Source: a virus
DNA: 64,000 bases
IMG/VR virus record: IMGVR_UViG_3300048556_000868
Coordinates: 62,001 to 126,000 of that record
Strand: one strand, 5' to 3'
Part shown: piece after piece, positions 29,870-44,067 of the stretch
Numbering within the stretch: position 1 is the stretch's first letter
Layout: every line of letters starts with the position of its first letter
Position numbers and translations under genes: made by a program
The notes under the pieces: model-generated
What the model saw: only the letters and a program-made list of their open reading frames with translations
Databases searched by the model: none
Told to the model about the DNA's origin: nothing

Positions 29870-30676
29870 TTACTTCTTTTCTTCTTTGCCTTCTTTTTTG
29901 TCTGTCTTTTTTTTGTTTTTTAAATTTTTTTTAATAAAGTCGGGAAGTTTCTTTTGTTTGTCGGTTAAACCGCTGTCGTCTTTGTCTTCTTTGTCTTCAG
30001 CTTTTGCTTTCTTTTTCTTAAGCAAGTTCTTTTTAATAAAATCAGGAAGTTTTTTCTGCTCGTCTGTTAAGCCTGATTCACCGTCTTTTTTTTCTTCTTT
30101 TTTATCAGCTTTTGATTTTTTTTCTTCTGAAGATTTTTGAGCTTTCTTTAGAGCTTTAGGGTCTGGATAATCTTTGTCGCCTGGTTTTGCAGGTTTGTAG
30201 TTTTTGCCCTCTCTTTTCTTTTTGTCGCGGATATTTTCCCATAACCCTTTTTTGCTTTCAGATTCATCCAAGAAAGCAACCATTTCTTCTTCTGCTTCTT
30301 CAAACGAAGACTCTTCACCTTTGGTCATTTTGGTGACACTCTTTTTGCTCCACATCTTGCAGCTCCAATATTTAGCTTTAGTTTTTGGCCCAGGGTTATC
30401 GCAGCCATGTCTAGCGCGAAAACTTTTACGACGAGCAGGATCATCACGCTTGATTGACATGTTCGGATCCCCGAAGCTTACTTTTACAACGTTGCCTTTT
30501 TCGTTTTTTACATAAACAGAAAACTTTTTAGGCCCACCTGGAGTTCTAAATGGTTTGTTAAGCTTTTTGCCGCTTTTTTCTTCGGCAGCCCAGGCTTCTA
30601 TCGTTATTTCTTTTTCGTTACCAATTTGATCTTGCAATCTTTGGATTATAGCTTGACTGAAATCTAGTTCTTTCAT
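29870..30676 (-). CDS. Phage protein with KRDDPARRKSFRARH motif and Lys-rich repeats
   Basis: The 268-residue protein has an N-terminal half with the conserved IKRDDPARRKSFRARHGCDN and KTKAKYWSCKMW motif seen in a family of T4-type marine phage structural proteins. The C-terminal half is extremely Lys-rich, with two copies of SGLTD(E/K)QKKLPDFIKKNL (29-residue units). A GTGTAATATAAAAT box lies 10-20 bases before the ATG. Nucleic-acid binding is likely; the virion role is unproven. Confidence 0.75.
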   Translation of the reverse strand: MKELDFSQAIIQRLQDQIGNEKEITIEAWAAEEKSGKKLNKPFRTPGGPKKFSVYVKNEKGNVVKVSFGDPNMSIKRDDPARRKSFRARHGCDNPGPKTKAKYWSCKMWSKKSVTKMTKGEESSFEEAEEEMVAFLDESESKKGLWENIRDKKKREGKNYKPAKPGDKDYPDPKALKKAQKSSEEKKSKADKKEEKKDGESGLTDEQKKLPDFIKKNLLKKKKAKAEDKEDKDDSGLTDKQKKLPDFIKKNLKNKKKTDKKEGKEEKK

Positions 30677-31218: not shown

Positions 31219-31287
31219 CTAAATCCTTGATAGTCAAGGGGTTAGGCGAGCCTGGCCTGCGTAAGTCGTTGATAAACAACAACTTAC
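31219..31287 (+). repeat. Palindromic element copy R1
   Basis: The copy has arms CCTTGA/TCAAGG and the centre GCGAGCCTGGCCTGC, then TAAGTCGTTG with a complement. A spacer GCAAAATAATTCAAAG and a promoter follow. Confidence 0.9.
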
Positions 31288-31327
31288 AGAAATAAGCAAA
31301 ATAATTCAAAGAAAATTTTCAAATAGC

Positions 31328-31356
31328 TTGACAGAAGGCACTGCATATGCGATAGT
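31328..31356 (+). promoter_or_regulatory. Early promoter TTGACA-N17-GATAGT
   Basis: Six bases separate the -10 box from the ATG at 31363. No Shine-Dalgarno sequence is present. Confidence 0.75.
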
Positions 31357-31362
31357 ATAATT

Positions 31363-31707
31363 ATGAAACTAATACATATAACATTCTCAAAAATCTCAGA
31401 CAAGCTGATTCAAGCGAGCTTGAGCGTTTTCAACGATAAGATGGCACGGCACATCTTCGACATTCAGGGGGTATCACGCAAGCAGTGTGCATACAACTTT
31501 TGCAAACAAGGAATTGTTTCTTGGGATCTTTTCTCCGAACTTAAAGAGATGGCAGGTGCAGAGGCAGATCCTCGCTTTTGCAAGGTAACCCGTTATCGTC
31601 AATCTCGTGCCGAAGCAAGAGAGGAAAAACTCGCAGATATCTGCGATGATCTCAAATGCTCGGTTTACGAGGCAGTTCAACTCTTAGACCATGGGGTGCA
31701 TCCATGA
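31363..31707 (+). CDS. Hypothetical early helical protein
   Basis: The 114-residue protein is helical and basic in its first half (MARHIFDIQGVSRKQCAYNF). Its end ICDDLKCSVYEAVQLLDHG resembles a small DNA-binding helical bundle, but no family is recognised. It is leaderless by promoter position. It overlaps the next micro-ORF by four bases (ATGA). Confidence 0.7.
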   Translation: MKLIHITFSKISDKLIQASLSVFNDKMARHIFDIQGVSRKQCAYNFCKQGIVSWDLFSELKEMAGAEADPRFCKVTRYRQSRAEAREEKLADICDDLKCSVYEAVQLLDHGVHP

Positions 31708-31760
31708 TCACATCCTTAATCATAGGAATAATAATCGCAACCATTTACGCAAACAAATAA
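31704..31760 (+). CDS. 18-residue membrane micro-peptide
   Basis: MITSLIIGIIIATIYANK is a single hydrophobic helix. ATGA overlap with the upstream gene and one base before the next ATG (31762) suggest coupled translation. Confidence 0.45.
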   Translation: MITSLIIGIIIATIYANK

Positions 31761-31761
31761 C

Positions 31762-32076
31762 ATGAGAAAAGTGACACAACAAATTAAACAAGCCTTTGAA
31801 CAAGGCAAATCTAAAAAAGTCGGCAACACCGAGACAGACGGGCAAACCGTTTGGCTACATGGCAACGCCATTGTGAAGCGTGACTCTAGCGGGTTAATTA
31901 AAGCTTCGCTTGCAGGTTGGAATACCCCTACCACTAGGGAAAGAGTCAACGGCATAACAGGCTTGGGGGTATATCAAAAAGACTTCGTACCCATGCTTAA
32001 CGGCAACGCAATAAATCCAAGCGATTGGTTTTGCGTCATGTCACACGCAAACAATGACTTACCTTTAATCTTCTAA
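31762..32076 (+). CDS. Hypothetical early protein
   Basis: The 104-residue protein has a basic helical start (TQQIKQAFEQGKSKK) and then beta-strands (TVWLHGNAIVKRDSSG). Its TAA is the first TAA of repeat copy R2. No family is recognised. Confidence 0.72.
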   Translation: MRKVTQQIKQAFEQGKSKKVGNTETDGQTVWLHGNAIVKRDSSGLIKASLAGWNTPTTRERVNGITGLGVYQKDFVPMLNGNAINPSDWFCVMSHANNDLPLIF

Positions 32077-32140
32077 GTCGTTGACTATCAGCCGCTTATG
32101 GCGGCCAGGCCCGCGTAAGTCGTTGGTACGCAACGGCTTA
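32074..32140 (+). repeat. Palindromic element copy R2
   Basis: The sequence TAAGTCGTTGACTATCAGCC opens the copy; GGCCAGGCCCGCG is the centre and TAAGTCGTTG/CAACGGCTTA the second arm. It contains the stop codon of the upstream gene. Confidence 0.92.
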
Positions 32141-32171
32141 AGAAAACCTGCAAAATAGTTGAAAAAAAAGA

Positions 32172-32200
32172 TTGCAATTCAACAAAAATTCCCTTAGTTT
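32172..32200 (+). promoter_or_regulatory. Early promoter TTGCAA-N17-TAGTTT
   Basis: Six bases separate the -10 box from the ATG at 32207. Confidence 0.6.
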
Positions 32201-32206
32201 ATACTT

Positions 32207-32401
32207 ATGACAGAAAAACAAAGATTACAACAAATAATTAATGACAACCTAGAAGCCGCAAGTAATGGCTCAGGTTCAGCTATGATGCAGTGCGTCGCGG
32301 CTCAAGCCGATCTTGATAGGATAGCACAATCGGAGGTTAATGAGTTGGAGGCTTATCTCGCCCACACTCCACTACCCAAACCTTTAATCTTAGTTGACTA
32401 A
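32207..32401 (+). CDS. Hypothetical early helical protein
   Basis: The 64-residue protein is helical with an Ala/Gln-rich middle (MMQCVAAQADLDRIAQSEV). Function unknown. Leaderless by promoter position; a 50-residue gene follows four bases later. Confidence 0.65.
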   Translation: MTEKQRLQQIINDNLEAASNGSGSAMMQCVAAQADLDRIAQSEVNELEAYLAHTPLPKPLILVD

Positions 32402-32405
32402 TAAA

Positions 32406-32558
32406 ATGAAATACATACTAGAATCAATCCCCTTTTCTTCTAAGATCGGATGGGTAGCCGAAACAGTTCCGATGTTTAAGCGTGAGGCTGAAGCTTTACT
32501 TAAAGCCCGCCTTGCCTATAGTGGTCGCGTAAGGCGATATCGAATAATAAAGTCATAA
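32406..32558 (+). CDS. Small basic early protein
   Basis: The 50-residue protein starts MKYILESIPFSSKIGWVAE and ends RVRRYRIIKS. A short spacing (4 bases) from the upstream stop suggests coupling. Its TAA lies in repeat copy R3. Function unknown. Confidence 0.6.
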   Translation: MKYILESIPFSSKIGWVAETVPMFKREAEALLKARLAYSGRVRRYRIIKS

Positions 32559-32623
32559 GTCGTTGACTATCAGCCGCTTATAGCGGCCAGGCCCGCGTAA
32601 GTCGTTGATATACAATGACTTAC
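32555..32623 (+). repeat. Palindromic element copy R3
   Basis: The copy has the first arm CTATCAGCCGCTTA, centre AGCGGCCAGGCCCGCG and second hairpin TAAGTCGTTG/CAATGACTTA. It includes the upstream stop codon. Confidence 0.92.
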
Positions 32624-32697
32624 GAAAAATATCGTATGTCTAAGCTGAGGCCCGCAAGCCTTTTATTTGGTCCAATTTCGTTTATTGTTGAATTGAT

Positions 32698-32726
32698 TTG
32701 ACACAGGTTAGCAATGCCTTTATGTT
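32698..32726 (+). promoter_or_regulatory. Early promoter TTGACA-N17-TATGTT
   Basis: Six bases separate the -10 box from ATG 32733. Confidence 0.75.
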
Positions 32727-32732
32727 ATATAT

Positions 32733-32972
32733 ATGGAAAATGAAAATGATTCTCTCACTCGCCTCGCCCACGCCAACGGCATCACTGATGTCGAGTTTGA
32801 AGCTCGTGAAAAAGAGCTTGCCCGTCTTGCTCGTCTTGAGAAAATACTCACTGATGTCAGGAATAGCGACGAGCCTGCTGAGATGTCAGAAGTACACCGT
32901 AACCATGAAGAGCCCAGCTTTGACCGATATCAGGATTATGACTATGGCTATCATGACCAATACGACTTTTAG
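32733..32972 (+). CDS. Hypothetical acidic early protein
   Basis: The 79-residue protein has a helical start (REKELARLARLEKILTDVR) and a Tyr/Asp-rich end (YQDYDYGYHDQYDF). This frame is chosen because the promoter ends before ATG 32733; an overlapping frame from 32698 includes the promoter. Function unknown. Confidence 0.72.
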   Translation: MENENDSLTRLAHANGITDVEFEAREKELARLARLEKILTDVRNSDEPAEMSEVHRNHEEPSFDRYQDYDYGYHDQYDF

Positions 32973-32973
32973 C

Positions 32974-33041
32974 ATAAGTCGTTGAGTATCAGCCGCTTAT
33001 GGCGGCCAGGCCCGCGTAAGTCGTTGATACACAACGGCTTA
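32974..33041 (+). repeat. Palindromic element copy R4
   Basis: The copy has TAAGTCGTTGAGTATCAGCC, centre GGCGGCCAGGCCCGCG and CAACGGCTTA. The spacer TTGCAAAATAATTCAAAAAA follows, almost as after R1. Confidence 0.92.
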
Positions 33042-33071
33042 GAAAAACTTGCAAAATAATTCAAAAAAAGT

Positions 33072-33100
33072 TTGACTTGAGCAAAATTCTGTCGTACTAT
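33072..33100 (+). promoter_or_regulatory. Early promoter TTGACT-N17-TACTAT
   Basis: Six bases separate the -10 box from ATG 33107. Confidence 0.78.
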
Positions 33101-33106
33101 AAGGGT

Positions 33107-33307
33107 ATGATAGAAAATAAAATATACACACACACGAGTCAGCTCCTGCTCAGCAGGATCGTTGATCTGGAGAAAAAAAATGCTCAGCTTGAGGAAATGC
33201 TCGAGGGCATCATGTTCAGGCTCGAAGACCTCGATGGCGAGGAATTCAAAGGCTGGCCATTGCCAGAGGATCGTAAGCCCGATGTGTTTGTTCCCCTAAG
33301 TTCTTGA
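33107..33307 (+). CDS. Hypothetical coiled-coil early protein
   Basis: The start is ATG 33107 (66 residues), because a longer TTG frame would begin inside the promoter. The middle is a coiled coil (LLLSRIVDLEKKNAQLEEML). Its TGA lies in repeat copy R5. Confidence 0.7.
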   Translation: MIENKIYTHTSQLLLSRIVDLEKKNAQLEEMLEGIMFRLEDLDGEEFKGWPLPEDRKPDVFVPLSS

Positions 33308-33364
33308 CAATCAAGGGCTTATGGAGCCCAAGCCCGCGTAAGTCGTTGATACGCAAGGGTTTAC
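33296..33364 (+). repeat. Palindromic element copy R5
   Basis: The first hairpin TAAGTTCTTGA/TCAAGGGCTTA differs from other copies on both arms in a pairing-preserving way. It contains the TGA stop of the upstream gene. Confidence 0.9.
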
Positions 33365-33391
33365 GGAAAGATAAAAAAGTAAAATCTTTTC

Positions 33392-33420
33392 TTGACTTTC
33401 GCCCAGGATAGAGGTACATT
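33392..33420 (+). promoter_or_regulatory. Early promoter TTGACT-N17-TACATT
   Basis: Five bases separate the -10 box from ATG 33426. Confidence 0.75.
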
Positions 33421-33425
33421 AGGGT

Positions 33426-33626
33426 ATGAAGATAACAATAACACAAGACCAATTAGACGAAGAAAAACGCGACGCTGACTTTCAGGCCTGGGCGGAAAAT
33501 ATAGGATTTTCGCACATCCTGACTCACGCCAAATCTGGGTATAGCTTTTACGAAGATCCAGACGGCAACCTCTGGGAGTGGAGTCAAATGATTGACGCTT
33601 TCGAAAAAGATTCCCTAACTCGTTGA
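33426..33626 (+). CDS. Hypothetical early protein, paralog of 30939-31199
   Basis: The 66-residue protein shares SGYSFYEDPDGNLWEWSQM with the 86-residue 30939 gene. It also has a helical N-terminus (LDEEKRDADFQAWAENIGF). Its TGA lies inside repeat R6. Function unknown. Confidence 0.72.
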   Translation: MKITITQDQLDEEKRDADFQAWAENIGFSHILTHAKSGYSFYEDPDGNLWEWSQMIDAFEKDSLTR

Positions 33627-33683
33627 ATATCAGCCGCTTAGGCGGCCCAGGCCCGCGTAAGTCGTTGATACGCAATGACTTAC
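33615..33683 (+). repeat. Palindromic element copy R6
   Basis: CTAACTCGTTGAATATCAGCC, GGCGGCCCAGGCCCGCG and CAATGACTTA are found here. It includes the upstream stop. Confidence 0.9.
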
Positions 33684-33774
33684 AAAAAACTAAAAGTTTT
33701 GTGCATCGATGCCCGCCTGGGGTAAAACTTATTTGCCCGTATTTCAATTAATTGCAAAAAAAGTGCGAATTTAC

Positions 33775-33803
33775 TTTACAAGCTTTACTTACTATGGTAC
33801 TTT
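33775..33803 (+). promoter_or_regulatory. Early promoter TTTACA-N17-TACTTT
   Basis: Six bases separate the -10 box from ATG 33810. Confidence 0.65.
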
Positions 33804-33809
33804 ATACTT

Positions 33810-33995
33810 ATGAAAGAAAAAATTAGAAACCTATTCGACAGAATTAACGAGCTTCAGCAAATTATCGACCTAGAGTCTGATATCGCAAACGAAGGTTGCA
33901 TTCGCTCTCAACAACTAATCATCAACGCAGAACAAGAAAAGGAACTCGTTCAAGAGCAAATCGACGCCCTTGCTCTTTGGCTTGCATTCGCTTAA
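33810..33995 (+). CDS. Hypothetical coiled-coil early protein
   Basis: The 61-residue protein is one long helix (LFDRINELQQIIDLESDIAN and LIINAEQEKELVQEQ). It is leaderless by promoter position; a 42-residue gene starts one base after its stop. Confidence 0.68.
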   Translation: MKEKIRNLFDRINELQQIIDLESDIANEGCIRSQQLIINAEQEKELVQEQIDALALWLAFA

Positions 33996-33996
33996 T

Positions 33997-34125
33997 ATGA
34001 CAGACAGAAATCAACAACTCACGGGTCATGACTTGCTTATGTATCTTATGTCCCGATTCAATATGACTCGCCCTGAAGCCCTTCACTCTATGAGGAAGGC
34101 GGGGCACAACACCTCGAAACTATGA
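33997..34125 (+). CDS. Small helical early protein
   Basis: The 42-residue protein (LTGHDLLMYLMSRFNMTRPE) carries a LMSRxxMTRPEA pattern akin to LMSRDGLTQAEA of the 39391 gene. It overlaps the next gene by four bases (ATGA). Confidence 0.6.
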   Translation: MTDRNQQLTGHDLLMYLMSRFNMTRPEALHSMRKAGHNTSKL

Positions 34126-34358
34126 GCTATAACGGCTGGAAAAATCGAGCCACCTGGAACGTGGCATTATGGATACAAAACGACGAAGGTCTTTACAGCT
34201 TTGCTAAAGACTGCACTTCTTACGATGTCTTTGTTGACTCGTTAAGAGAGGTTTCAGGTGATAGCTCAATAGGCTATCAAACTCCTGATGGGGTAGCCTG
34301 GAATGATAGTGGGCTTGACTACCCACGATTAGACGAGCTTGTAATGGATTTGTCGTAA
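34122..34358 (+). CDS. DUF7249-like phage protein
   Basis: The 78-residue protein has the conserved start SYNGWKNRATWNVALWIQND, followed by EGLYSFAKD, a short phage family of unknown function known from many phages. Its TAA opens repeat R7. Confidence 0.75.
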   Translation: MSYNGWKNRATWNVALWIQNDEGLYSFAKDCTSYDVFVDSLREVSGDSSIGYQTPDGVAWNDSGLDYPRLDELVMDLS

Positions 34359-34432
34359 GTCTTTGGCTATCAGCCGCTTATGGCGGCCAGGCCCGCGTAA
34401 GTCGTTGAATATCAATAGTTTATGTAAACTTT
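34355..34432 (+). repeat. Palindromic element copy R7
   Basis: TAAGTCTTTGGCTATCAGCC and GGCGGCCAGGCCCGCG are kept; the last arm is degenerate (CAATAGTTTA). It includes the upstream stop. Confidence 0.88.
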
Positions 34433-34452
34433 CAAAATAACAAACAAAAAGT

Positions 34453-34481
34453 TTGACATAAGCCAAAATATAAGCGATATT
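34453..34481 (+). promoter_or_regulatory. Early promoter TTGACA-N17-GATATT
   Basis: Five bases separate the -10 box from ATG 34487. Confidence 0.75.
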
Positions 34482-34486
34482 AAGGT

Positions 34487-34819
34487 ATGAATAAAATAAA
34501 CATTGATGATATAGATACAAGCGAAGATCTTTTCTTCGTTTCGATTGATAACGCTGAAATCTCTGAGATGATCCTGACCTGCTCTTTTTGGAGAGATGAG
34601 ACCGAATCCCTTTATGGCGATCAAGTTTCAGAAACTCATATCGTCGGATACTTTGACCAAATCGAATCGGTGGAAGCATGGGGCAAAAATGGATTTCCAA
34701 TAATCCCTCCAAAAGAATTAATAGACGAAGCTAAGAAACAGCTCGCTGGAGTGGAATTGGAGATTGACACCATAAGCCATAAGGTCGATACCTCTCCACA
34801 ATACTACGATCTCATTTAA
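34487..34819 (+). CDS. Hypothetical early acidic protein
   Basis: The 110-residue acidic protein has beta-strands (DLFFVSIDNAEISEMILT) and a C-terminal helix (LIDEAKKQLAGVELEI). No family is recognised. It precedes repeat R8 and the strand switch. Confidence 0.7.
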   Translation: MNKINIDDIDTSEDLFFVSIDNAEISEMILTCSFWRDETESLYGDQVSETHIVGYFDQIESVEAWGKNGFPIIPPKELIDEAKKQLAGVELEIDTISHKVDTSPQYYDLI

Positions 34820-34822
34820 TCG

Positions 34823-34892
34823 CGTAAGTCCTTGAGTGCCAAGCACTTAGGGCGGCCAGGCCCGCGCAAGTCGTTGAATATCAACGACTTAC
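34823..34892 (+). repeat. Palindromic element copy R8
   Basis: GTAAGTCCTTGAGTGCCAAGCACTTA and GGCGGCCAGGCCCGCG are kept, then TAAGTCGTTG-type arm with CAACGACTTA; one first-arm position is mispaired. Confidence 0.9.
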
Positions 34893-34954
34893 GAGAAACT
34901 AAAAAATCGAAGATCGCGGGCTATATTATTATTTGCTATTTGTTTATTTATTAT

Positions 34955-35176
34955 TTATTCTTGAGGCATTTCTTCTGTCAAGACATATAGCTTGCCGTAT
35001 GCACCTGTCGCTTGTTCTGTTATATCGGTGAATCTGCCCGTGGCTAAGTTTGCTTCTAAGCAAGATTCAGAAATCTTGTGTTCGCCTTGTCTTGGTTTTT
35101 CGTTACCTTCGACTTCCATAAGAGCGAACATACTATTGCCACCGATTGTAGTAGCTATAAAAAAAGGATCATCCAT
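34955..35176 (-). CDS. Hypothetical small protein
   Basis: The 73-residue protein starts MDDPFFIATTIGGNSMFALMEVE and ends in acid residues. GGAGG lies inside the preceding micro-ORF, 12-16 bases upstream. Function unknown. Confidence 0.65.
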   Translation of the reverse strand: MDDPFFIATTIGGNSMFALMEVEGNEKPRQGEHKISESCLEANLATGRFTDITEQATGAYGKLYVLTEEMPQE

Positions 35177-35246
35177 GTTTTAAGTCCTCCCACATGATGT
35201 AAAAAACAAAAAGCCAAGGCAAGAATAATATAATATCCCAACTCAT
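35169..35246 (-). CDS. 25-residue membrane micro-peptide
   Basis: The frame starts ATG 35246 and encodes MSWDIILFLPWLFVFYIMW and a short polar tail, one hydrophobic helix. It overlaps the upstream gene by ATGA and carries the ribosome site of the downstream gene. Confidence 0.5.
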   Translation of the reverse strand: MSWDIILFLPWLFVFYIMWEDLKHG

Positions 35247-35503
35247 GATTGGTAGACTCCTTTCATTTGATCGCTGACAACACCCATGTCTTGATCTTCT
35301 TCTTCGATGTCTTCTGCTGAATCAGAGTTAAGAAATTGCTTCTCATCTTCTACATCTTCTTTTTGGGCATCAAGTAATCCATGCCTAGTGACAATATCTT
35401 CCGTTTTTACTTCTGCAACAAATTCGTCAACAGATGCACTTTGGAAACCTTGACTAGCAAGGACTGCGTTTTTAATAATGGCGATTCTTTGTTCTTCTGT
35501 CAT
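35243..35503 (-). CDS. Hypothetical acidic protein
   Basis: The 86-residue protein is helical at its start (EEQRIAIIKNAVLASQ) and very acidic at the end (EDIEEEDQDMG). No family is recognised. Confidence 0.65.
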   Translation of the reverse strand: MTEEQRIAIIKNAVLASQGFQSASVDEFVAEVKTEDIVTRHGLLDAQKEDVEDEKQFLNSDSAEDIEEEDQDMGVVSDQMKGVYQS

Positions 35504-35527
35504 AATAGTAATATAGTTTAGTTGTGA

Positions 35528-35890
35528 TTAGTCGTCAAGTCCTAAGTCGTCACGAAAGTCTTTTCTTAACTTTCTGAGAAGATCAACCCAAGCATCTCCG
35601 TCAAGTTGAGCGTCTCTCATGAGCTTGCTGACTTGAGCGGGAGTTTGCCTTGCAAGGACATCGTCTCCAACACCAAGAGGAATCATGTCTGCACTTCCTT
35701 TTTTCCACATTGCAACTTCGTACTCGTCATCGTCAAGATGACCATAAAGACTATCCCCATTAGCAATGTTTGCTACAACTGAAATAGTTATGTCGCCCAT
35801 GTTTAGTTGAGCCATAACTGCGTTGTCGCAAGAAGGATGAGTATGGAAAGCGAGATTGTCGAAGTTAAGTAATTGTTGTTTTGCTATCAT
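35528..35890 (-). CDS. Hypothetical early protein
   Basis: The start is ATG 35890 (120 residues), because the longer frame to 36016 would translate repeat R9 and the promoter. It has HTHPSCDNAVMAQL, VSKLMRDAQLDGDAWVDLLR and an acidic C-terminus. Function unknown. Leaderless by promoter position. Confidence 0.72.
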   Translation of the reverse strand: MIAKQQLLNFDNLAFHTHPSCDNAVMAQLNMGDITISVVANIANGDSLYGHLDDDEYEVAMWKKGSADMIPLGVGDDVLARQTPAQVSKLMRDAQLDGDAWVDLLRKLRKDFRDDLGLDD

Positions 35891-35896
35891 GATAAT

Positions 35897-35925
35897 ACTA
35901 TCGCATATGTAGTTAATTAACGCAA
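35897..35925 (-). promoter_or_regulatory. Early promoter TTGCGT-N17-GATAGT
   Basis: Six bases separate the -10 box from the ATG at 35890. Its CATATGCGATAGTAT core also occurs at the plus-strand promoter of 31363. Confidence 0.68.
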
Positions 35926-35955
35926 GAAAAAAGTTAAGTTTTTTTACATTATGTT

Positions 35956-36024
35956 GTAAGTTGTTGGCCCGCAAGTACTTACGCGGCCCTGGCCCGCGTA
36001 AGCCACTGACTATCAATGACTTAC
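35956..36024 (-). repeat. Palindromic element copy R9
   Basis: GTAAGTTGTTG/CAAGTACTTAC and the GCGGCCCTGGCCCGCG centre are kept; the second hairpin is weaker. Spacer and promoter follow on the minus strand. Confidence 0.88.
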
Positions 36025-36033
36025 GCGATTAAG

Positions 36034-36369
36034 TTAAGATAACTCTTTAAAAAGCTTATCTATGAGCGACTCTGATTTTTTGTCATAAACTAATGCCATA
36101 GCGTGAGGTATGTCTTTGTTGAGTAAGACTAAGTGGCTAAGTTTATCTCTAAAACAATTAATTAAGAATGACTCCCCGAACTCAGGATGCAATTTATGGT
36201 CATCAATGTGCATTATAGTTTTCCAATACATTTGACCATTTTTTGCAAAGTCAGATACTGATTGATTCTTTGGATTAGCCCTTTGGGTTATTGGGCATAA
36301 CCTAGTCTTACCAATGTAGAACGCTAGCTCTTGATACGAGTTAATTGCTTTCTTTATGTAGTGGCTCAT
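36034..36369 (-). CDS. Hypothetical protein
   Basis: The 111-residue protein (SYQELAFYIGKTRLCPITQ, DIPHAMALVYDKKS) has no recognised family. It overlaps the upstream GQH-motif gene by four bases, so the two may act together. Confidence 0.65.
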   Translation of the reverse strand: MSHYIKKAINSYQELAFYIGKTRLCPITQRANPKNQSVSDFAKNGQMYWKTIMHIDDHKLHPEFGESFLINCFRDKLSHLVLLNKDIPHAMALVYDKKSESLIDKLFKELS

Positions 36370-37364
36370 GCTTTGAAAACCTTTCTGTCAATGTTATGGT
36401 TTGAGACTAACCAATCAACCGCAATAGGAAAGAATTCTTCTTGGCGGTAGCAATCTCTGTTAGTCTTGCTACTCATTGTGTCTATTTTATCCCTTTTTTC
36501 TCTTCTGTACATTTCGACTAACAAATGCTCTTCGAGTTGTTTTGGATCAGCGAAAGACTTTCCCCTGTTTTCCATGCTATGAGAATCACAAATCTCATTC
36601 ATGATATCTTCTGCTAATTCTTGATTCTCTTTTGCAAGCAAGAACAAAGCATAGCCTATAGATTTATGTGGGAAATCTCTAGATAAGACTCTGTCTTTAA
36701 AGACATCCGTTAATATGCTTTTATTGTCTTCAATGATATCTTCGTACTCAAAGTAATTGACTTGACCACTATAACCAAAAGGCTTACCATGTATAACTCT
36801 TTTTCCCTCAATTAAAACAATAGCTTTTTGAGTAGGGTTAAGTAAAACATTTTCGATCATAAGGTTTTGCTCAGGGGTTCTTTTCTTTTGGGTGTCCAAA
36901 TAAGGCATTGCATCTTCATTGCAACCAATCTTAAATCCGATTGGTACTTCAGAACCACTTGGTGTGTTTGCATCCAAGAAAAATTGAGCTACAGCCTCTA
37001 ATGTGTGTTGTCCATTCATTAAGTGACCTTCTTTAGCTACATGGATATCTAGATTTTCTTGATACCATATGCCCGCTTTAAGACAACGAAATAATCTTGC
37101 AACATTATCCGCAACCTTTTGTCTGTTATTGGAGTTTATCTCTGAAGACTTCATGTATTCTATCAAAGGTAAATCTTCACTAGTAAAGGTTACGGGTAAA
37201 TACTCGTAATCATCTTTCACGAAGTTTTCTTCAAAAAAGTCTTGAGTCTCAATCTTTTCGCTTTCACTTAACTTTGTAGCCATCTTAGCTTTTGATCTGC
37301 CAAGTTTTCTAGCAAAAGATAGTTTTGATGCTTTTTTAGTTTTGTTTGTAGTTTGTACTTTCAT
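36366..37364 (-). CDS. GQH-motif (DGQHR-like) protein
   Basis: The 332-residue protein has a Lys-rich start and then KVADNVARLFRCLKAGIWYQ, LMNGQHTLEAV and YLDTQKKRTPEQNL. This matches the pattern of DGQHR/ParB-like nuclease-fold proteins, in which a GQH loop is central. Family membership is by motif only. A leader of ~60 bases and a TTGCAA-N17-TATTGT promoter (~37440) precede it. Confidence 0.6.
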   Translation of the reverse strand: MKVQTTNKTKKASKLSFARKLGRSKAKMATKLSESEKIETQDFFEENFVKDDYEYLPVTFTSEDLPLIEYMKSSEINSNNRQKVADNVARLFRCLKAGIWYQENLDIHVAKEGHLMNGQHTLEAVAQFFLDANTPSGSEVPIGFKIGCNEDAMPYLDTQKKRTPEQNLMIENVLLNPTQKAIVLIEGKRVIHGKPFGYSGQVNYFEYEDIIEDNKSILTDVFKDRVLSRDFPHKSIGYALFLLAKENQELAEDIMNEICDSHSMENRGKSFADPKQLEEHLLVEMYRREKRDKIDTMSSKTNRDCYRQEEFFPIAVDWLVSNHNIDRKVFKA

Positions 37365-37471
37365 GTTATATATGTTTTTAAGTTAATTTAGATAAACCTG
37401 ATCATGTATAAGACAATAAGGTAATTTATAAAAAGTTGCAAGAAAAAAATACAATAAAAACGCACTTTTTT

Positions 37472-37540
37472 GTAAGTTGTTGACTATCAAGTACTTAGGC
37501 GGTCCAGGCCCGCGTAAGTCGTTGGTTACCAAAGACTTAC
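37472..37540 (-). repeat. Palindromic element copy R10
   Basis: GTAAGTTGTTGACTATCAAGTACTTA, GGCGGTCCAGGCCCGCG and TAAGTCGTTG/CAAAGACTTA are present. Confidence 0.9.
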
Positions 37541-37548
37541 TAAAGGCG

Positions 37549-37653
37549 TGTCCCTGTCGCGGCAGGAGTCGAACCTGCAAGAGTTTAATTAAGACTGCAA
37601 TCTAAATTTCTCTCATCTCCTCTGATTTGCAGATCAAATAGAACGCGGGGACA
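37549..37653 (-). ncRNA. tRNA-like element (T-arm, non-canonical)
   Basis: On the minus strand a perfect T-arm, GCAGG-TTCGACT-CCTGC, is followed by CGCG and GGGACA that pair with TGTCCC-CGCG at the 5' end. The inner ~70 bases do not make a clear canonical D-arm plus 5-bp/7-base anticodon arm; TTGCAG and CTGCAAA loops are visible. No CCA is encoded. It may be a degenerate tRNA or a tRNA-like structured RNA. Confidence 0.4.
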
Positions 37654-37662
37654 TATATAAAT

Positions 37663-37836
37663 TTAATTTTTTTGAATGATTATGACTTTTTCTCCAGTTT
37701 TTTGTTTATGTTCAATTTGAAGCCTTTGGGCGACATGATATGCTCGTGCCGAGCTTTTTACATTGTCCACGAGTTTGCCGAACATTGTGATGTTTAGCCA
37801 TTCCCTGAAGTTTTGGTTGCGAGATATAGTAATCAT
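37663..37836 (-). CDS. Small basic protein
   Basis: The 57-residue protein (NFREWLNITMFGKLVDNVK) is basic and overlaps the upstream gene by one base (TAATG). Function unknown. Confidence 0.65.
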   Translation of the reverse strand: MITISRNQNFREWLNITMFGKLVDNVKSSARAYHVAQRLQIEHKQKTGEKVIIIQKN

Positions 37837-38042
37837 TAGAATTTTAGTGTTTTTAGTGATGTGTTAGTTTTGAGCCATCTGCGAAGTGGGTGGTAGCAGT
37901 TTGAGCCTTCATGGATAAGATTCTGTTCGCCATTCTTGGCACAGATCATATATCCGTTTGCAGTTCTTTGAATGCTTGTGATGTCCACGCATTTCTTCAG
38001 TTGTTTAATGACTTTTCTGATTGAGTTTCCTGTATGTTTCAT
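37836..38042 (-). CDS. Hypothetical small basic protein
   Basis: The start is ATG 38042 (68 residues), because a promoter fills the longer frame. SIRKVIKQLKKCVDITSIQR, then a beta-strand and HEGSNCYHPLRRWLK weakly recall HicA-type dsRBD-fold proteins, but this is not diagnostic. Confidence 0.68.
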   Translation of the reverse strand: MKHTGNSIRKVIKQLKKCVDITSIQRTANGYMICAKNGEQNLIHEGSNCYHPLRRWLKTNTSLKTLKF

Positions 38043-38048
38043 GGTTAT

Positions 38049-38077
38049 AATATCGCATAAATAACCTATCATGTAAA
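38049..38077 (-). promoter_or_regulatory. Early promoter TTTACA-N17-GATATT
   Basis: Six bases separate the -10 box from the ATG at 38042. An AACTTTTTTC tract precedes the -35 box, as at 39391, 40857 and 44061. Confidence 0.72.
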
Positions 38078-38107
38078 GAAAAAAGTTAAGTTTTTTTGCA
38101 GATTGTC

Positions 38108-38177
38108 ACAAGTTGTTGTATATCAGGCACTTACGCGGCCTAGGCCCGCGCAAGTCGTTGACAGTCAGCGACTTACG
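38108..38177 (-). repeat. Palindromic element copy R11
   Basis: ACAAGTTGTTGTATATCAGGCACTTAC, GCGGCCTAGGCCCGCGC and CAAGTCGTTG/CAGCGACTTA are present. Confidence 0.9.
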
Positions 38178-38255
38178 GGGTTAAAAGTTTTTCTTCCTGG
38201 GGCTAGCCTGGGCGAAAAGTTTTGCGTATTTGATGCCCGCGTTAAAAATGGGCAA

Positions 38256-38426
38256 TTAATACCCTAACCAAATCAAAACTTCTTGAGCATCATATTCTTC
38301 ATGCTCACCCATATCCTTGAAGAATTCTATAATATCCTCGTTAGATGTAATCCCGTGGCTTGCTAATTCTTGCAAAGCACGATCTTGCGTTATCCCAATG
38401 TTTTCGGCTGAATCGTAATAGTCCAT
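38256..38426 (-). CDS. Small acidic protein
   Basis: The 56-residue protein (TQDRALQELASHGITSNEDI) is acidic and overlaps the GP88-family gene stop by one base. Function unknown. Confidence 0.65.
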   Translation of the reverse strand: MDYYDSAENIGITQDRALQELASHGITSNEDIIEFFKDMGEHEEYDAQEVLIWLGY

Positions 38427-39163
38427 TATGAATTTATACCTTCTTTAACGAATCCCGTCAAGTCTTTTTTAGCAAGACCTTTTTCGATAAGCCCAACAAC
38501 GACACCTTTTTTGTCTAGGAAACGCAAGTCCGATTCATCACCATTGACAACCTCGTACCCGTTCCAAGTTTTAGGTAATTCGTTGCGAAAGACTACAGCG
38601 ACATTGCCACCCATTGAAAGAACCATTTTGCATTTTTCTTCGTTATGTTCTGAGCAAGAAAAAGTTAAGTGATAATTTGAAGGAAACTTTGACTCACCCT
38701 TAATGAAAGGTTTGTTAAGGAAAGAACACATTCTCTTAAATGATTTAGTATAATCATAAAATTGAATTGAGTTATGCTTCTCAAACAAATTCACTCCATC
38801 TTCATTGACAATATCTTCCCATGCGATATCGCTTGTAAGGTTAGGACGAAACACCGCTTGCAAGCTCTTTTTGCTTGCTGACTTTATCGTGGAAGTAATT
38901 TCTTTTGATAGTTTTGAAAGAAAGTCAAATCTTTGCTCAAAGAATAACTTTGTCTTAGCAATGCGTGAATCTTGAACGGAATTCATTTGTCCACGACCTG
39001 CCGTGTTGAGACAAGCCATAGTGCAACCTTTTGAACGCCAACGGCAAACTTCGTAGCCTGACAAATTGGCGGGAGCTAAATGAATGCCTTTTGTTAAATA
39101 TCCGAATGCTTCGCCCTTAGTAATTTTAGCGTTGCCTGAAGTGAGTAATGTTTGCTTAATCAT
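38426..39163 (-). CDS. GP88-family phage protein
   Basis: The 245-residue protein matches the mycobacteriophage gene-88 family pattern: GYLTKGIHLAPANLSGYEVC, CTMACLNTAGRG, SIQFYDYTKS and NGYEVVNGDESDLRF. The Cys residues are conserved within the family. Its biochemical role is unknown. It starts close to the leaderless 39391 gene, with no Shine-Dalgarno sequence. Confidence 0.78.
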   Translation of the reverse strand: MIKQTLLTSGNAKITKGEAFGYLTKGIHLAPANLSGYEVCRWRSKGCTMACLNTAGRGQMNSVQDSRIAKTKLFFEQRFDFLSKLSKEITSTIKSASKKSLQAVFRPNLTSDIAWEDIVNEDGVNLFEKHNSIQFYDYTKSFKRMCSFLNKPFIKGESKFPSNYHLTFSCSEHNEEKCKMVLSMGGNVAVVFRNELPKTWNGYEVVNGDESDLRFLDKKGVVVGLIEKGLAKKDLTGFVKEGINS

Positions 39164-39184
39164 AAAAGAATAATAGTTGAATTG

Positions 39185-39391
39185 TTAAATAACTGCAAGC
39201 GAAAAAATAAAATCTTCAAAGTAGTCAGGCTCAAGACCAAACTCTTGAACAAAATCGTTTTCCCAGGAAAAAGGATCTCCTCCGCTTTGGATATCTTCTT
39301 GCATTGCAAGAAAGAAATCTTTTACTTGTTTTACCGCCTCAGCTTGGGTTAAACCATCACGGGACATTAATACTTTTACTGTTTCTTTCAT
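39185..39391 (-). CDS. Hypothetical small acidic protein
   Basis: The start is ATG 39391 (68 residues), because the promoter overlaps the longer frame. LMSRDGLTQAEAVKQVKDFF and PFSWENDFVQEFGLEPDYF suggest a small helical bundle. Function unknown. Confidence 0.68.
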   Translation of the reverse strand: MKETVKVLMSRDGLTQAEAVKQVKDFFLAMQEDIQSGGDPFSWENDFVQEFGLEPDYFEDFIFSLAVI

Positions 39392-39397
39392 AAGTAT

Positions 39398-39426
39398 ACT
39401 ATGCCACAAAACTAGTATCTTGTAAA
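39398..39426 (-). promoter_or_regulatory. Early promoter TTTACA-N17-CATAGT
   Basis: Six bases separate the -10 box from the ATG at 39391. Confidence 0.72.
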
Positions 39427-39456
39427 GAAAAAAGATCGATTAAATTGCACTTTGTC

Positions 39457-39525
39457 GTAAGTAGTTGAACTGCAAGTACTTACGCGGGCCTGGCCCGCGC
39501 AAGTCGTTGATTACCAACGAGTTGC
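39457..39525 (-). repeat. Palindromic element copy R12
   Basis: This copy has the strongest centre, GCGGGCCTGGCCCGC (perfect palindrome), and GTAAGTAGTTG/CAAGTACTTAC. Confidence 0.92.
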
Positions 39526-39541
39526 GTAAATAAAAGGGCAC

Positions 39542-39566
39542 AAAAAAACCCCCTCCGAAGAGGGGG
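39542..39566 (-). terminator. Rho-independent terminator after DUF932 gene
   Basis: A stem of CCCCCTC and GAGGGGG with a four-base loop is followed on the minus strand by seven T. It lies 23 bases after the stop of the DUF932 gene. Confidence 0.92.
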
Positions 39567-39588
39567 CTAAGGATGGGCTGATCCTTAT

Positions 39589-40464
39589 TTAGACAGAAAC
39601 TATTTCGCCTTCAACTACCGCCCTTTCAATGGGTTCGGCAGTTAAAAAATTGTCCATTCTGAAATCGACAACAGAGTCAAGAACAGAATGAAGAGCCTCT
39701 GATCTTTTAGGCAAAGCTACAAGATTACCTTTGTAAACCTCGGTAAAAGCATTGTAAAGGGAATTAGCGTTGCGATCCCAAAATTCGGGATGATCGGAAG
39801 ATTCCCATTGATCCACAATATCCATTACCTTAGACTTTGCACAAGCACCTGCTTTACAAGCGTTGATGATAAGATCATTGGCTTGAGAATTGGTAAGCTC
39901 AAAGTTTTGATAAGCCTCGATGCGATTATCTTGACCGATCCAAAAATCGAACAACTTACCCAATGCACGATTGATAGTGAAGTTAAGGTCTTTCTCAATG
40001 TTGCAAGTATGTCTGCGAGACAACTTGATGGTATTGGTAAAGATGAGATTATCACAAACAAAAGGAGCATCACCTGCACACAAACCCGCAGGAAATGTCT
40101 TGTCGTGAGAATTGCGTAGACCAATAACGCAACCTCTTTCGGATGGTTTGCGATTAGGATGATCAACGGAGAACAAACCAAAATAATGGTTGCCATCACG
40201 AGCAAGCGAATGAAGCTCGTCATGAATAGTGAATCCACCTGTTTCTAGAAACCCCTTAGTGCGATCCACTAAATCGTGATGTGGGATTGGTTGATGAGAA
40301 ACAGAGAACTCACCTGTTCTCTTGTTTGGCTTCTCTCTGTAACTGACAGGAGGAGTCACGACATTTACCACATCTCCGTAATCGACAATAGAACGATTAC
40401 CGCCCATGATGTGAAGGTTAACTCTGTTAGTGGGAACGACTTGATTGTTTTCTGTGTTATTCAT
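39589..40464 (-). CDS. DUF932 family protein
   Basis: The 291-residue protein has the DUF932 signature: SHDKTFPAGLCAGDAPFVCD (a GLCAG-VCDN core), RHTCNIEKDL and ANSLYNAFTEVYKGN. This family occurs in phages and plasmids and has no settled function. It has its own leaderless promoter and a strong terminator, so it may be a single-gene early unit. Confidence 0.85.
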   Translation of the reverse strand: MNNTENNQVVPTNRVNLHIMGGNRSIVDYGDVVNVVTPPVSYREKPNKRTGEFSVSHQPIPHHDLVDRTKGFLETGGFTIHDELHSLARDGNHYFGLFSVDHPNRKPSERGCVIGLRNSHDKTFPAGLCAGDAPFVCDNLIFTNTIKLSRRHTCNIEKDLNFTINRALGKLFDFWIGQDNRIEAYQNFELTNSQANDLIINACKAGACAKSKVMDIVDQWESSDHPEFWDRNANSLYNAFTEVYKGNLVALPKRSEALHSVLDSVVDFRMDNFLTAEPIERAVVEGEIVSV

Positions 40465-40470
40465 AGCTTT

Positions 40471-40499
40471 AATAATATATAATTTAGGTTTTCTGTCAA
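40471..40499 (-). promoter_or_regulatory. Early promoter TTGACA-N17-ATTATT
   Basis: Six bases separate the -10 box from the ATG at 40464. Confidence 0.65.
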
Positions 40500-40502
40500 T
40501 AG

Positions 40503-40748
40503 TTAATTTAAATAATTATGGGAATCGGTAAACTTTTTTTCTTCCATAGCATAGTATGCCTCGGCTTTTTCTGCAATGTCTTTAAAGATAAGACCTAGTT
40601 GGGCAAGCAAGTCAAGATCAATTTCTTCAATCCCGCCATCTTTGATGCGTGGCTCGATAAAGTTTTCCCAAATGTAGCTCATGCCATGATCCATAGCATC
40701 AATAGCACTTGGGCGATCTGAGGGAGAGAATTCTTTTTTAATATTCAT
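40503..40748 (-). CDS. Hypothetical helical protein
   Basis: The 81-residue protein (MSYIWENFIEPRIKDGG, LAQLGLIFKDIAEKAEAYY) overlaps the 40738 gene by 11 bases. Function unknown. Confidence 0.65.
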   Translation of the reverse strand: MNIKKEFSPSDRPSAIDAMDHGMSYIWENFIEPRIKDGGIEEIDLDLLAQLGLIFKDIAEKAEAYYAMEEKKFTDSHNYLN

Positions 40749-40857
40749 ATTGTTTTTTGTGTTTTGTTTTTCTGTCTAAAATTTTATTCTTCATTTTGAA
40801 TGGGCGAGCCTTTGTAAAAAGGATTGTTTTTCTTATCTTTATCTCTCTCACTTTCAT
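40738..40857 (-). CDS. Small basic peptide
   Basis: The start is ATG 40857 (39 residues), directly after the promoter. It is very basic (KVREIKIRKTILFTKARPF). Longer frames would read the promoter and repeat R13. Confidence 0.55.
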   Translation of the reverse strand: MKVREIKIRKTILFTKARPFKMKNKILDRKTKHKKQYEY

Positions 40858-40863
40858 ATATAC

Positions 40864-40892
40864 ATAGTAAGCTAATTTTTGTACTTTGTAAA
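40864..40892 (-). promoter_or_regulatory. Early promoter TTTACA-N17-TACTAT
   Basis: Six bases separate the -10 box from the ATG at 40857. Confidence 0.75.
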
Positions 40893-40922
40893 GAAAAAAG
40901 TTTAATAAAATGTGCTTTTGTT

Positions 40923-40991
40923 GTAAGTGCTTGTATATCAAGGACTTGCGCGGGGGGAAGCGTTGTAAGTCGTTGAATGGCAGCGACTTAT
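40923..40991 (-). repeat. Palindromic element copy R13 (degenerate centre)
   Basis: Arms GTAAGTGCTTG/CAAGGACTTGC and TAAGTCGTTG/CAGCGACTTA are kept; the centre GCGGGGGGAAGC lost its palindrome. Confidence 0.82.
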
Positions 40992-41016
40992 GTAATAAAA
41001 AAAATAAAAAAAATCG

Positions 41017-41045
41017 TTGACACGGGCTAATATATGCCTTAATAT
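41017..41045 (+). promoter_or_regulatory. Early promoter TTGACA-N17-TAATAT with leader
   Basis: Here the -10 box is ~40 bases before ATG 41085 and AAAAGGAAA serves as ribosome site, unlike the leaderless cassettes. Confidence 0.8.
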
Positions 41046-41084
41046 TAGGAATAATTAAATAACAACACTAACAAAAGGAAAAAT

Positions 41085-41396
41085 ATGTCACTACTACCAC
41101 AAGAACTACTCGAATCAGCAGTAAGAATGAAAATCGGAAAAAATGCATATAGCATAGAAGACCTCAACAGATATGTAGGTCAAGTCATTCTCTCACTTGC
41201 CGAAGGTCACGATATTCTCGGATCAAAACAAGTTGCGGATGCAGTCAAAGCAGTCGCAAAAGCTGAGTGCGAAAAAGATCATGGAAAGACTGCCGTGTCT
41301 TGGGTTGATTATGCTGAAAAGTATGGCGAGGATACTCCTGCCAGTAACGCTTTCTGCTTTCAATCCCTCAATCAAATGAGCTTAGAGAGGTCTTAA
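41085..41396 (+). CDS. Hypothetical early protein
   Basis: The 103-residue protein (ELLESAVRMKIGKNAYS, QVADAVKAVAKAECEK) is helical and has a standard leader and AAAGGAA site, so it may be strongly expressed. Repeat R14 follows its stop. No family is recognised. Confidence 0.72.
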   Translation: MSLLPQELLESAVRMKIGKNAYSIEDLNRYVGQVILSLAEGHDILGSKQVADAVKAVAKAECEKDHGKTAVSWVDYAEKYGEDTPASNAFCFQSLNQMSLERS

Positions 41397-41407
41397 CCCT
41401 TAAAGCC

Positions 41408-41477
41408 CCTAAGTCCTTGGTAATCAAGGGCTTAGGCGGCCCAGGCCCGCGTAAGTTGTTGATGCTCAGTACTTTAT
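41408..41477 (+). repeat. Palindromic element copy R14
   Basis: CTAAGTCCTTGGTAATCAAGGGCTTA, GGCGGCCCAGGCCCGCG and TAAGTTGTTG are kept; the final arm is degenerate (CAGTACTTTA). Confidence 0.88.
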
Positions 41478-41518
41478 AAAAAACCCCGTCCTTGGCATAA
41501 CTCAACCAAAGACGGGGC
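41478..41518 (-). terminator. Terminator of minus-strand operon
   Basis: CCCCGTC...GACGGGG with a longer inner stem is followed on the minus strand by TTTTTT. It ends the operon whose last gene stops at 41543. Confidence 0.88.
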
Positions 41519-41542
41519 TAGTAGTGGAGGAAAGGTTATTTG

Positions 41543-41683
41543 CTATTTGCGAGTTTTGAATTTGTAAAACTTATTAAGCATGTAGTAATGCTTCGCGTCT
41601 AGAGGTTGAGGGATGTTAAACCCGTATAGTTCTGCCTCAGCCAATTGGTGCCCGAGAGCCCTTAGTTTTTGTTGTAGTGTCAT
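41543..41683 (-). CDS. Small basic protein
   Basis: The 46-residue protein (LRALGHQLAEAELYGFNIPQ, ending YKFKTRK) starts at ATG 41683 with AAAGGGA upstream. Last gene before the terminator. Function unknown. Confidence 0.65.
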   Translation of the reverse strand: MTLQQKLRALGHQLAEAELYGFNIPQPLDAKHYYMLNKFYKFKTRK

Positions 41684-41688
41684 AATAA

Positions 41689-41919
41689 TTATCCCTTTAT
41701 TAGGCTTACGATGCGATCATAACGAAAAGACCTAAATCCATTTCGATTAAAGCACCAAGATTTAAAGCCGACAACATCTTTGCCTTCGGTCATGTTGCCG
41801 AACTCGCCTTTGTGTTTTGGCTTGGTGATTGTATACATTGCAGTTGCTCCGTTAGCTGTACGGTAAACAAGCTTGTACTTTGGTTTAACTGCGTTAAGAA
41901 TTTTAGTTAGTAGTTTCAT
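41689..41919 (-). CDS. Short WYL-like basic protein
   Basis: The 76-residue protein fits a small phage family (YKLVYRTANGATAMYTI, GFKSWCFNRNGFRSFRYDRI) that resembles the beta-strand part of WYL domains. AAAGGAC lies before the ATG. Ligand or nucleic-acid binding is possible. Confidence 0.65.
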   Translation of the reverse strand: MKLLTKILNAVKPKYKLVYRTANGATAMYTITKPKHKGEFGNMTEGKDVVGFKSWCFNRNGFRSFRYDRIVSLIKG

Positions 41920-42160
41920 TGGCGTCCTTTGTTACAGGGTTTTGGTTGTAATAGTTGTAAAGCTCGCAAGCCTCTTCGGCTGAGTCACAACTATAAGAAA
42001 TTAGATCAGGAAAATTAATGTTCTCCCTAAGCAATTCGTCGTATGGGTGGTATGGGGTCTCGGACTCTTCAAACCATAGTTTCCATTGCTCTGCTTGTTC
42101 ATCGTATTCGGGTAAGTCAATTGGACTTCCGATGCAAACTCCTTCTATGTAATTGTTCAT
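41903..42160 (-). CDS. Hypothetical acidic protein
   Basis: The 85-residue protein is rich in Glu, Tyr and Trp (YDEQAEQWKLWFEESETPY). It overlaps the next gene by 17 bases. Function unknown. Confidence 0.62.
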   Translation of the reverse strand: MNNYIEGVCIGSPIDLPEYDEQAEQWKLWFEESETPYHPYDELLRENINFPDLISYSCDSAEEACELYNYYNQNPVTKDANETTN

Positions 42161-42161
42161 T

Positions 42162-42582: not shown

Positions 42583-42583
42583 T

Positions 42584-42793: not shown

Positions 42794-42799
42794 AATATA

Positions 42800-42828
42800 A
42801 ATCTAACTTAGTTGAACTTCTTTGTCAA
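42800..42828 (-). promoter_or_regulatory. Early promoter TTGACA-N17-TAGATT
   Basis: Six bases separate the -10 box from ATG 42793. The -35 box is inside the end of the upstream gene. Confidence 0.7.
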
Positions 42829-43042: not shown

Positions 43043-43044
43043 GT

Positions 43045-43400: not shown

Positions 43401-43423
43401 AGGTATCTTAACTAATAGTTGTT

Positions 43424-44061: not shown

Positions 44062-44067
44062 AGATAC

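Follow-up and report, generated by a model that had tools for sequence, protein, structure and literature searches.

Small-gene cassettes, probably shuffled by recombination between polar palindromic elements, in a large phage with T4-type genes

Short palindromic sequences repeated between genes are known from several systems. The attC sites of integrons are imperfect palindromes of 60–140 nt that lie between small genes, and integron cassettes are gained and lost. In the REPINs of the REPIN/RAYT system, two inverted hairpins make up one short intergenic unit that occurs in many copies. Among the T4-like phages, promoter early stem-loops (PeSLs) are stated in PMC4503421 to mediate gene shuffling (citing Arbiol et al. 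2010, Genome Biol Evol 2:140; Comeau et al. 2014, Genome Biol Evol 6:1611). The haloarchaeal virus HGTV-1 carries a repeated motif composed of a TATA box and an inverted repeat, for which the part of PMC3950731 devoted to it proposes roles in regulation and shuffling. In Bacillus phage SPbeta, the repressor-binding motif SPBRE (15 bp in a ChAP-seq analysis) occurs in promoter regions (PMC10516654). Here we describe an array of a near-palindromic element of 67–72 nt in a viral stretch of 64,000 nt (the window), which corresponds to positions 62001–126000 of a 137,718-nt IMG/VR contig (record IMGVR_UViG_3300048556_000868; G000 below).

Eight copies of the element are located at 31219–34897, each followed by an AT-rich stretch, a sigma70-like promoter, and a small open reading frame (ORF). 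The original prediction had reported such a repeated unit of palindrome, promoter and small gene at 31219–34892, and the array proved to be larger: a hidden Markov model (HMM) of the element located seven further copies on the right, giving 15 copies (R1–R15) that span 31219–44200. The segments between them, each consisting of a promoter and one to three small genes with an element on both sides, are referred to as cassettes hereafter. We consider it probable that this single array, which belongs to a large phage with T4-type genes, is made up of exchangeable small-gene cassettes that are shuffled by recombination between the element copies, with the exchange taking place in or beside the GC-rich core of the element, most likely by general recombination.

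The likeness to PeSLs that had been proposed for these cassettes holds for their function and logic: in both cases, a repeated stem-loop and a promoter that resembles the early type lie between small genes of a variable region and are tied to the shuffling of small genes between related phages. It does not hold for the anatomy. In the gaps of phage RB49, which were read as a PeSL control, the unit is an intrinsic terminator (a hairpin with a T-run), a TTGACA promoter, and a ribosome-binding-site leader with AGGAG. In contrast, the element described here lacks a T-run, is a double palindrome with a GC core that bounds the cassettes on both sides, faces both ways, and is also found between convergent and between divergent genes; moreover, the cassettes invert while the polarity of the element is fixed relative to the genome, the promoters reach up to the ATG, and the genes appear to be leaderless. 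Because of these differences in the T-run, the inversion of cassettes and the position of the promoters, the system is PeSL-like but is a distinct shuffling system, not a canonical PeSL. The element also has no sequence similarity to T4-type PeSLs: its consensus matched nothing in 50,697 named phage records including RB49 (blastn, whose reach is limited at 72 nt), which makes the cassette family distinct in sequence from all of them. The HGTV-1 motif likewise combines a repeated promoter and an inverted repeat in a virus unrelated to T4, but that promoter is archaeal, and the part of PMC3950731 dealing with the motif offers no comparative evidence on breakpoints. SPBRE resembles the present element in being an intergenic element repeated across a large phage genome; however, it is not described as a cassette boundary in PMC10516654, and the present element is not restricted to promoters (in 49 of 211 cases it is found where two 3′ ends converge).

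Gene order and breakpoints at the elements

All the sequences used are metagenome contigs of uncultured bacterial viruses, and most of these contigs are partial. The loci of relatives were collected by two protein searches, an exact core pattern, and a spaced pattern (35 stretches), which provided 243 element copies from about 30 distinct viral contigs, with a few contigs entering this count twice. After mechanical gene calling and BLASTP clustering, the genes were placed on maps together with the elements, and the neighbours were then compared over 30 contigs. Neighbouring genes with an element between them kept their adjacency in only 80 of 500 comparisons (16%), while neighbours without an element kept it in 92 of 187 comparisons (49%) when separated by a gap of at least 60 nt and in 443 of 787 (56%) when separated by a tight gap. 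Since the comparisons of adjacency are not independent, the labels were permuted within contigs, which gave p = 0.0005. A corresponding contrast was seen for the first 11 loci (18/139 with an element versus 164/271 without). The original prediction had set breakpoints in the palindromes, with gain or loss of single genes, against a conserved gene order without such breakpoints; the comparison with relatives revealed gene gain, loss, movement, and inversion, with the breakpoints at the elements.

The units that change place are whole cassettes. The protein-cluster modules 12-18-15, 41-25-29, and 10-19-27 recur whole between elements at varied places and on either strand. The single genes of protein clusters 11, 32, 42, and 65 recur in the same manner, as do the modules containing GP88 (38256–39391), DUF932, and DUF7249, all of them intact and bounded by elements. 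Individual genes are distributed over both strands among the contigs (minus/plus: 8/9 for gene 3, 10/9 for gene 1, 4/2 for gene 32, and 5/9 for another gene). In addition, some cassette proteins reach 70–91% identity in pairs of phages for which the larger flanking proteins stand at about 50% (for example, 91% versus 50%). Such a large difference within one pair suggests an exchange of cassettes between lineages.

The junctions themselves were also compared. Between L017 and L036, which are about 90% identical, the homology ends inside or within 10 nt of elements at the inspected cassette differences of the array, and one element of L017 corresponds to an element-gene 32-element arrangement in L036. 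Between the window and L018, gene 32 is inverted together with both of its elements. Furthermore, 84 comparisons of empty and filled sites, covering 44 empty sites, showed that the outward halves of the two elements at a filled site are closer to the single element of the empty site than the inward halves are (outward better in 57, inward better in 21; Wilcoxon p = 2e-5, or p = 0.0015 when calculated per junction). In the pair of L107 (empty) and L094 (filled), for instance, the outward and inward matches are 0.91 and 0.71, respectively, and each half of the empty element, left and right, matches the element of L094 on its own side.

The same division was found among elements that lie beside the same gene end in different contigs. 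The hairpin near the gene tracks the gene, both at the 3′ end (identity 0.770 versus 0.729 for shuffled pairs) and at the 5′ end (0.729 versus 0.708; p = 0.0003 for both), while the far hairpin tracks it only weakly, and in the column profile the excess identity all but vanishes at the core. For whole elements the excess was merely 0.011; the signal emerged when the elements were split into halves. Since the gene-proximal half-element travels with the gene and the far half hardly does so, the exchange is placed at the core. These sequence comparisons thus show the elements to be boundaries of exchange, and the cassettes to move, invert, duplicate, and enter sites that hold one empty element, with the point of exchange lying between the two hairpins.

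Anatomy of the element and the cassettes

In the aligned copies, each element consists of two 25-nt palindromes (TAAGTCGTTGAnnnTCAAnnnCTTA) flanking a GC-rich palindromic core of about 17 nt. The whole is also nearly self-complementary; with this architecture, the unit is more than the simple palindrome described at first. In all four arms of the element, the outer AA/TT pairs and the inner T/A show little or no variation over the full set of copies, whereas the three central bases vary. Covariation is near null in the stems of hairpins 1 and 2 and is present in the core (z 2.8 to 4.5 for the inner pairs); since the stems barely covary and the core does, the 25-nt palindromes seem to be conserved for their DNA sequence and the core for its palindromic form. 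The polarity of the element is tied to the genome axis in 82 of the 86 copies that could be anchored by the flanking gene 29870–30676, regardless of the strand of the neighbouring genes (outside the anchored loci, orientations were counted relative to the majority of each locus). Because the polarity follows the genome axis whatever the gene strand, the element would act as DNA and not purely at the RNA level. No T-run follows either hairpin in the aligned copies. Intrinsic terminators, where present, are separate and lie within the cassette beside the element, as at 39568–39547 (by R12) and 41519–41482 (by R14), both on the minus strand. As these strong terminators directly adjoin the two elements, termination and the element are regarded as separate features. 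Overall, 49 of 211 copies are located between convergent genes and 16 of 211 between divergent genes.

The start codon that follows an element lies 66 nt from its edge (median), and the stop codon that precedes an element lies about 20 nt away (median). When 180 cassette-first genes were aligned on their start codons, a sigma70-like promoter was found directly downstream of the stem-loop at fixed −35/−10 positions, with TTG at −35 to −33, TA at −12/−11, and T at −7, while a Shine-Dalgarno-like motif was found in only 14 of the 180. Because the promoter signals sit at a fixed distance from the start codon and the Shine-Dalgarno motif is nearly absent, the cassette transcripts are probably leaderless. 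The promoters in the gaps fall into two classes, A (a TTGACA-like box with an A-rich upstream stretch, the GCAAAATAATTC spacer of the original prediction) and B (GTGCATTTTAATTAACTTTTTTCTTgCA/TTTACA, its minus-strand spacer). The spacers noticed at first do exist, the plus-strand GCAAAATAATTCAAAAAA type before R1, R2, R4, and R7, and the minus-strand type (GTGCATTTTAATTAA followed by CTTTTTTCTTTACA), with variation, at R10–R13 and R15; the alignment of the 180 promoters clarified, however, that they are not two strand-specific spacer versions but the UP/−35 parts of the two promoter classes. In L001, two successive cassettes (4228–4360 and 4515–4647) differ in their genes but have a nearly identical element end and promoter, which would suit a duplication or conversion of the promoter-element unit. 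In a more distant relative (L077, 15600–18191), near-identical promoters (TTGACT...TGTGATATACT...GTTATG) are repeated before small genes without the palindromic element.

The genes that the cassettes collect may, as the original prediction supposed, serve host takeover; nearly all of the cassette proteins have no known function, most of them belonging to no known family or only to families of unknown function. The features of the array are as follows (window coordinates; E values from nhmmer).

31219–31292, plus: element R1, left boundary of the array (63 bits, E = 9e-19)
31293–32072, plus: cassette 1, class A promoter (TTGACA at 31328), genes 31363–31707 and 31762–32076 (Kyano_Gp96-like)
32073–32146, plus: element R2 (E = 4e-23)
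32147–32554, plus: cassette 2, genes 32207–32401 (duplicated in relative L036) and 32406–32558
32555–32628, plus: element R3 (E = 3e-23)
32629–32973, plus: cassette 3, one gene, 32733–32972 (protein cluster 65), also element-flanked in L018 and L011
32974–33047, plus: element R4 (E = 5e-23)
33048–33295, plus: cassette 4, one gene, 33107–33307
33296–33369, plus: element R5 (E = 4e-21)
33370–33614, plus: cassette 5, one gene, 33426–33626; element end and promoter closely resemble those of two consecutive L036 cassettes with different genes
33615–33688, plus: element R6 (E = 2e-22)
33689–34354, plus: cassette 6, genes 33810–33995 and 34122–34358 (DUF7249); same families on the opposite strand in L034
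34355–34428, plus: element R7 (E = 1e-21)
34429–34823, plus: cassette 7, one gene, 34487–34819 (protein cluster 32), moved in L036 and inverted together with its elements in L018
34824–34897, plus: element R8, convergent genes on either side (E = 2e-21)
34898–35955, minus: cassette 8, class B promoter, genes 34955–35176, 35243–35503, and 35528–35890
35956–36029, plus: element R9, with the array polarity despite minus-strand flanking genes (E = 3e-18)
36030–37471, minus: cassette 9, genes 36034–36369 and 36366–37364, a pair also element-flanked in L091
37472–37545, plus: element R10 (E = 1e-21)
37546–38107, minus: cassette 10, genes 37663–37836 and 37836–38072
38108–38181, plus: element R11 (E = 2e-16)
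38182–39456, minus: cassette 11, genes 38256–38426, 38426–39163 (GP88), and 39185–39391; module recurs element-flanked in L018, L111, and L116
39457–39530, plus: element R12 (E = 3e-17)
39531–40922, minus: cassette 12, genes 39589–40464 (DUF932), one from 40503, and 40738–40857; own intrinsic terminator (39568–39547) at the end
40923–40996, plus: element R13 (weaker), divergent genes on either side (22 bits in the first model, 47–51 bits in refined models)
40997–41408, plus: cassette 13, one gene, 41085–41396 (protein cluster 42); in L107 a lone empty element stands here, in L094 the site is filled
41409–41482, plus: element R14 (E = 4e-17)
41483–44126, minus: long run of small genes without internal elements
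44127–44200, minus in the refined model: element R15, polarity nearly ambiguous (E = 1e-13)

The E values range from 1e-18 to 1e-23 for the first eight copies and from 1e-13 to 1e-23 for all fifteen, R13 being weaker. In the full contig, elements occur only at 93.2–106.2 kb, and in a 200-kb relative (G001) they are likewise limited to one stretch (180.7–189.0 kb). A host-borne repeat was ruled out, as two pattern scans with the strict pattern found no element in 84,980 bacterial and archaeal genomes. Rfam reported only a manA RNA and a tRNA, both located elsewhere than the elements, and repeats in other related loci turned out to be coding repeats or repeated promoters. The manA motif (44490–44699, minus strand, 81 bits) lies just past the last element of the array. 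At 37547–37660 on the minus strand, a tRNA-like sequence whose T-arm reads GGTTCGACTCC and whose acceptor stem may be formed by GTCCC/GGGAC, reported by neither ARAGORN nor Rfam, may be a decayed tRNA gene. Back-to-back element pairs with little or nothing in between occur in L099 and L105, and are perhaps sites of lost cassettes.

The T4-type features of the genome are a terminase domain, PhoH, a sigma-like protein (below the cut-off of Pfam), and a GHKL-ATPase protein. It also carries ribonucleotide reductase and glycosyltransferases. The nearest named relatives of its terminase include SPbeta-like phages (22–28% identity), and its major capsid candidate had no match in named phages. An ORF of 5036 amino acids lies in the structural region of the contig (G000 38933–54043; L128).

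Possible explanations of the array

In the explanation that we favor, each cassette would be a self-contained expression unit with a −10 box abutting the start codon and with polar quasi-palindromic elements as its bounds. Recombination from element to element would result in the gain, loss, movement, duplication, and inversion of cassettes, and an exchange in or beside the GC core would leave each cassette with its nearest hairpin. The likeliest agent is homologous recombination, or single-strand annealing, by phage or host proteins, which may use short stretches of identity between copies within one genome or in co-infecting genomes and may be aided by palindromes extruding hairpins on lagging-strand or single-stranded DNA. 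The 200-kb relative encodes a RecA/UvsX-like protein. The same recombination might homogenise the elements within a genome; two copies resemble each other more when they come from one contig (0.747) than when they come from different contigs (0.675). Several points weigh against this explanation. The gene order is also altered at some boundaries without elements (44–51% of those comparisons), G000 itself has no RecA match, and a recombinase of an unrecognised kind is possible, as the contigs are incomplete. When all pairs were considered, the ends of nucleotide blocks were only moderately enriched inside the elements (14% versus 8%) and within 40 nt of them (27% versus 17%), although a moderate enrichment is expected because divergence, too, ends alignments. 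Finally, the recombination is deduced entirely from metagenome contigs, and assemblies of these may go wrong at repeats. The risk of chimeric joins is real, but the low mean identity of copies from one genome (75%) lessens it, as does the agreement of two contig pairs from separate samples (L091/L092 and L113/L117).

The invariant, symmetric half-sites at all four arms, the exchange point at the core, the single-element empty sites, and the fixed polarity would also suit a true site-specific recombination site similar to those of integrons or dif modules, in which four TAAGnnnTTGA half-sites serve as arms and the core as the exchange site for an unrecognised recombinase or hairpin-processing enzyme. 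The likeness to integrons lies in palindromes that separate small genes and in cassettes that are gained and lost. However, the present cassettes have their own promoters and occur in both orientations, the boundary halves stay with the gene on each side, and no precise, fixed exchange nucleotide was resolved. In addition, no tyrosine recombinase (PF00589), serine recombinase (PF00239), or Y1 transposase (PF01797) was detected in seven records (G000 and six relatives, which may be incomplete), although the controls were positive. We therefore regard this explanation as unlikely. The lack of a Y1 transposase in these records and the confinement of the element to one array also distinguish it from the REPIN/RAYT system, which it resembles in having paired inverted hairpins as a short multi-copy intergenic unit. 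A bolder proposal, to which we would give somewhat more room while still doubting it, is that of a previously undescribed phage-encoded system, an "integron of phages," in which the polar element with its four half-sites and GC core would be a dedicated site at which an unrecognised recombinase, or the processing of hairpins at the replication fork, trades leaderless, self-promoted small genes among uncultured phages.

Two further explanations place the function of the element in gene expression. It could be an operator like SPBRE, the site of the SPbeta repressor MrpR, repeated at promoters, so that the rearrangements would merely fall at operon ends. The conserved dyad-symmetric half-sites about 66 nt upstream of the cassette start codons are consistent with this, as are the SPbeta-like relatives of the terminase and the description of SPBRE as a repeated promoter-region element (PMC10516654). 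Nevertheless, the copies between convergent genes have no promoter there, gaps of at least 60 nt without an element were kept three times as often as element boundaries, and the half-element tracks the 3′ end of the gene most strongly, so that we find an operator quite improbable. The least probable of all, in our judgment, is an action in RNA, as a bidirectional terminator, an RNase processing site, or a 3′-end stabiliser, that is, a PeSL proper. The element does fold well and lies close past the stop codons, and in the window alone the wobble pairs favor the transcribed strand (23 GT to 2 AC between plus-strand genes, 4 to 5 between minus-strand genes). In the full set, however, this suggestive bias became unconvincing, as it did not clearly follow the gene strand (72% versus 62%, p = 0.05). 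Moreover, the T-run is lacking and real terminators stand separately beside two elements, the polarity is set by the genome axis and not by the genes, the stems do not covary outside the core, and copies also occur between divergent genes.

To the question of how phages gain and reorder their many small accessory genes, PeSLs are one answer for the T4-type enterobacterial phages. In the uncultured phages described here, the same logic is followed by an element of another kind, which is richer in structure. The 243 copies and the close sibling genomes, with their empty and filled sites, inversions, and an exchange point inside the element, make the process measurable, and splitting at the element provides a simple rule by which the accessory-gene modules of such genomes can be delimited.

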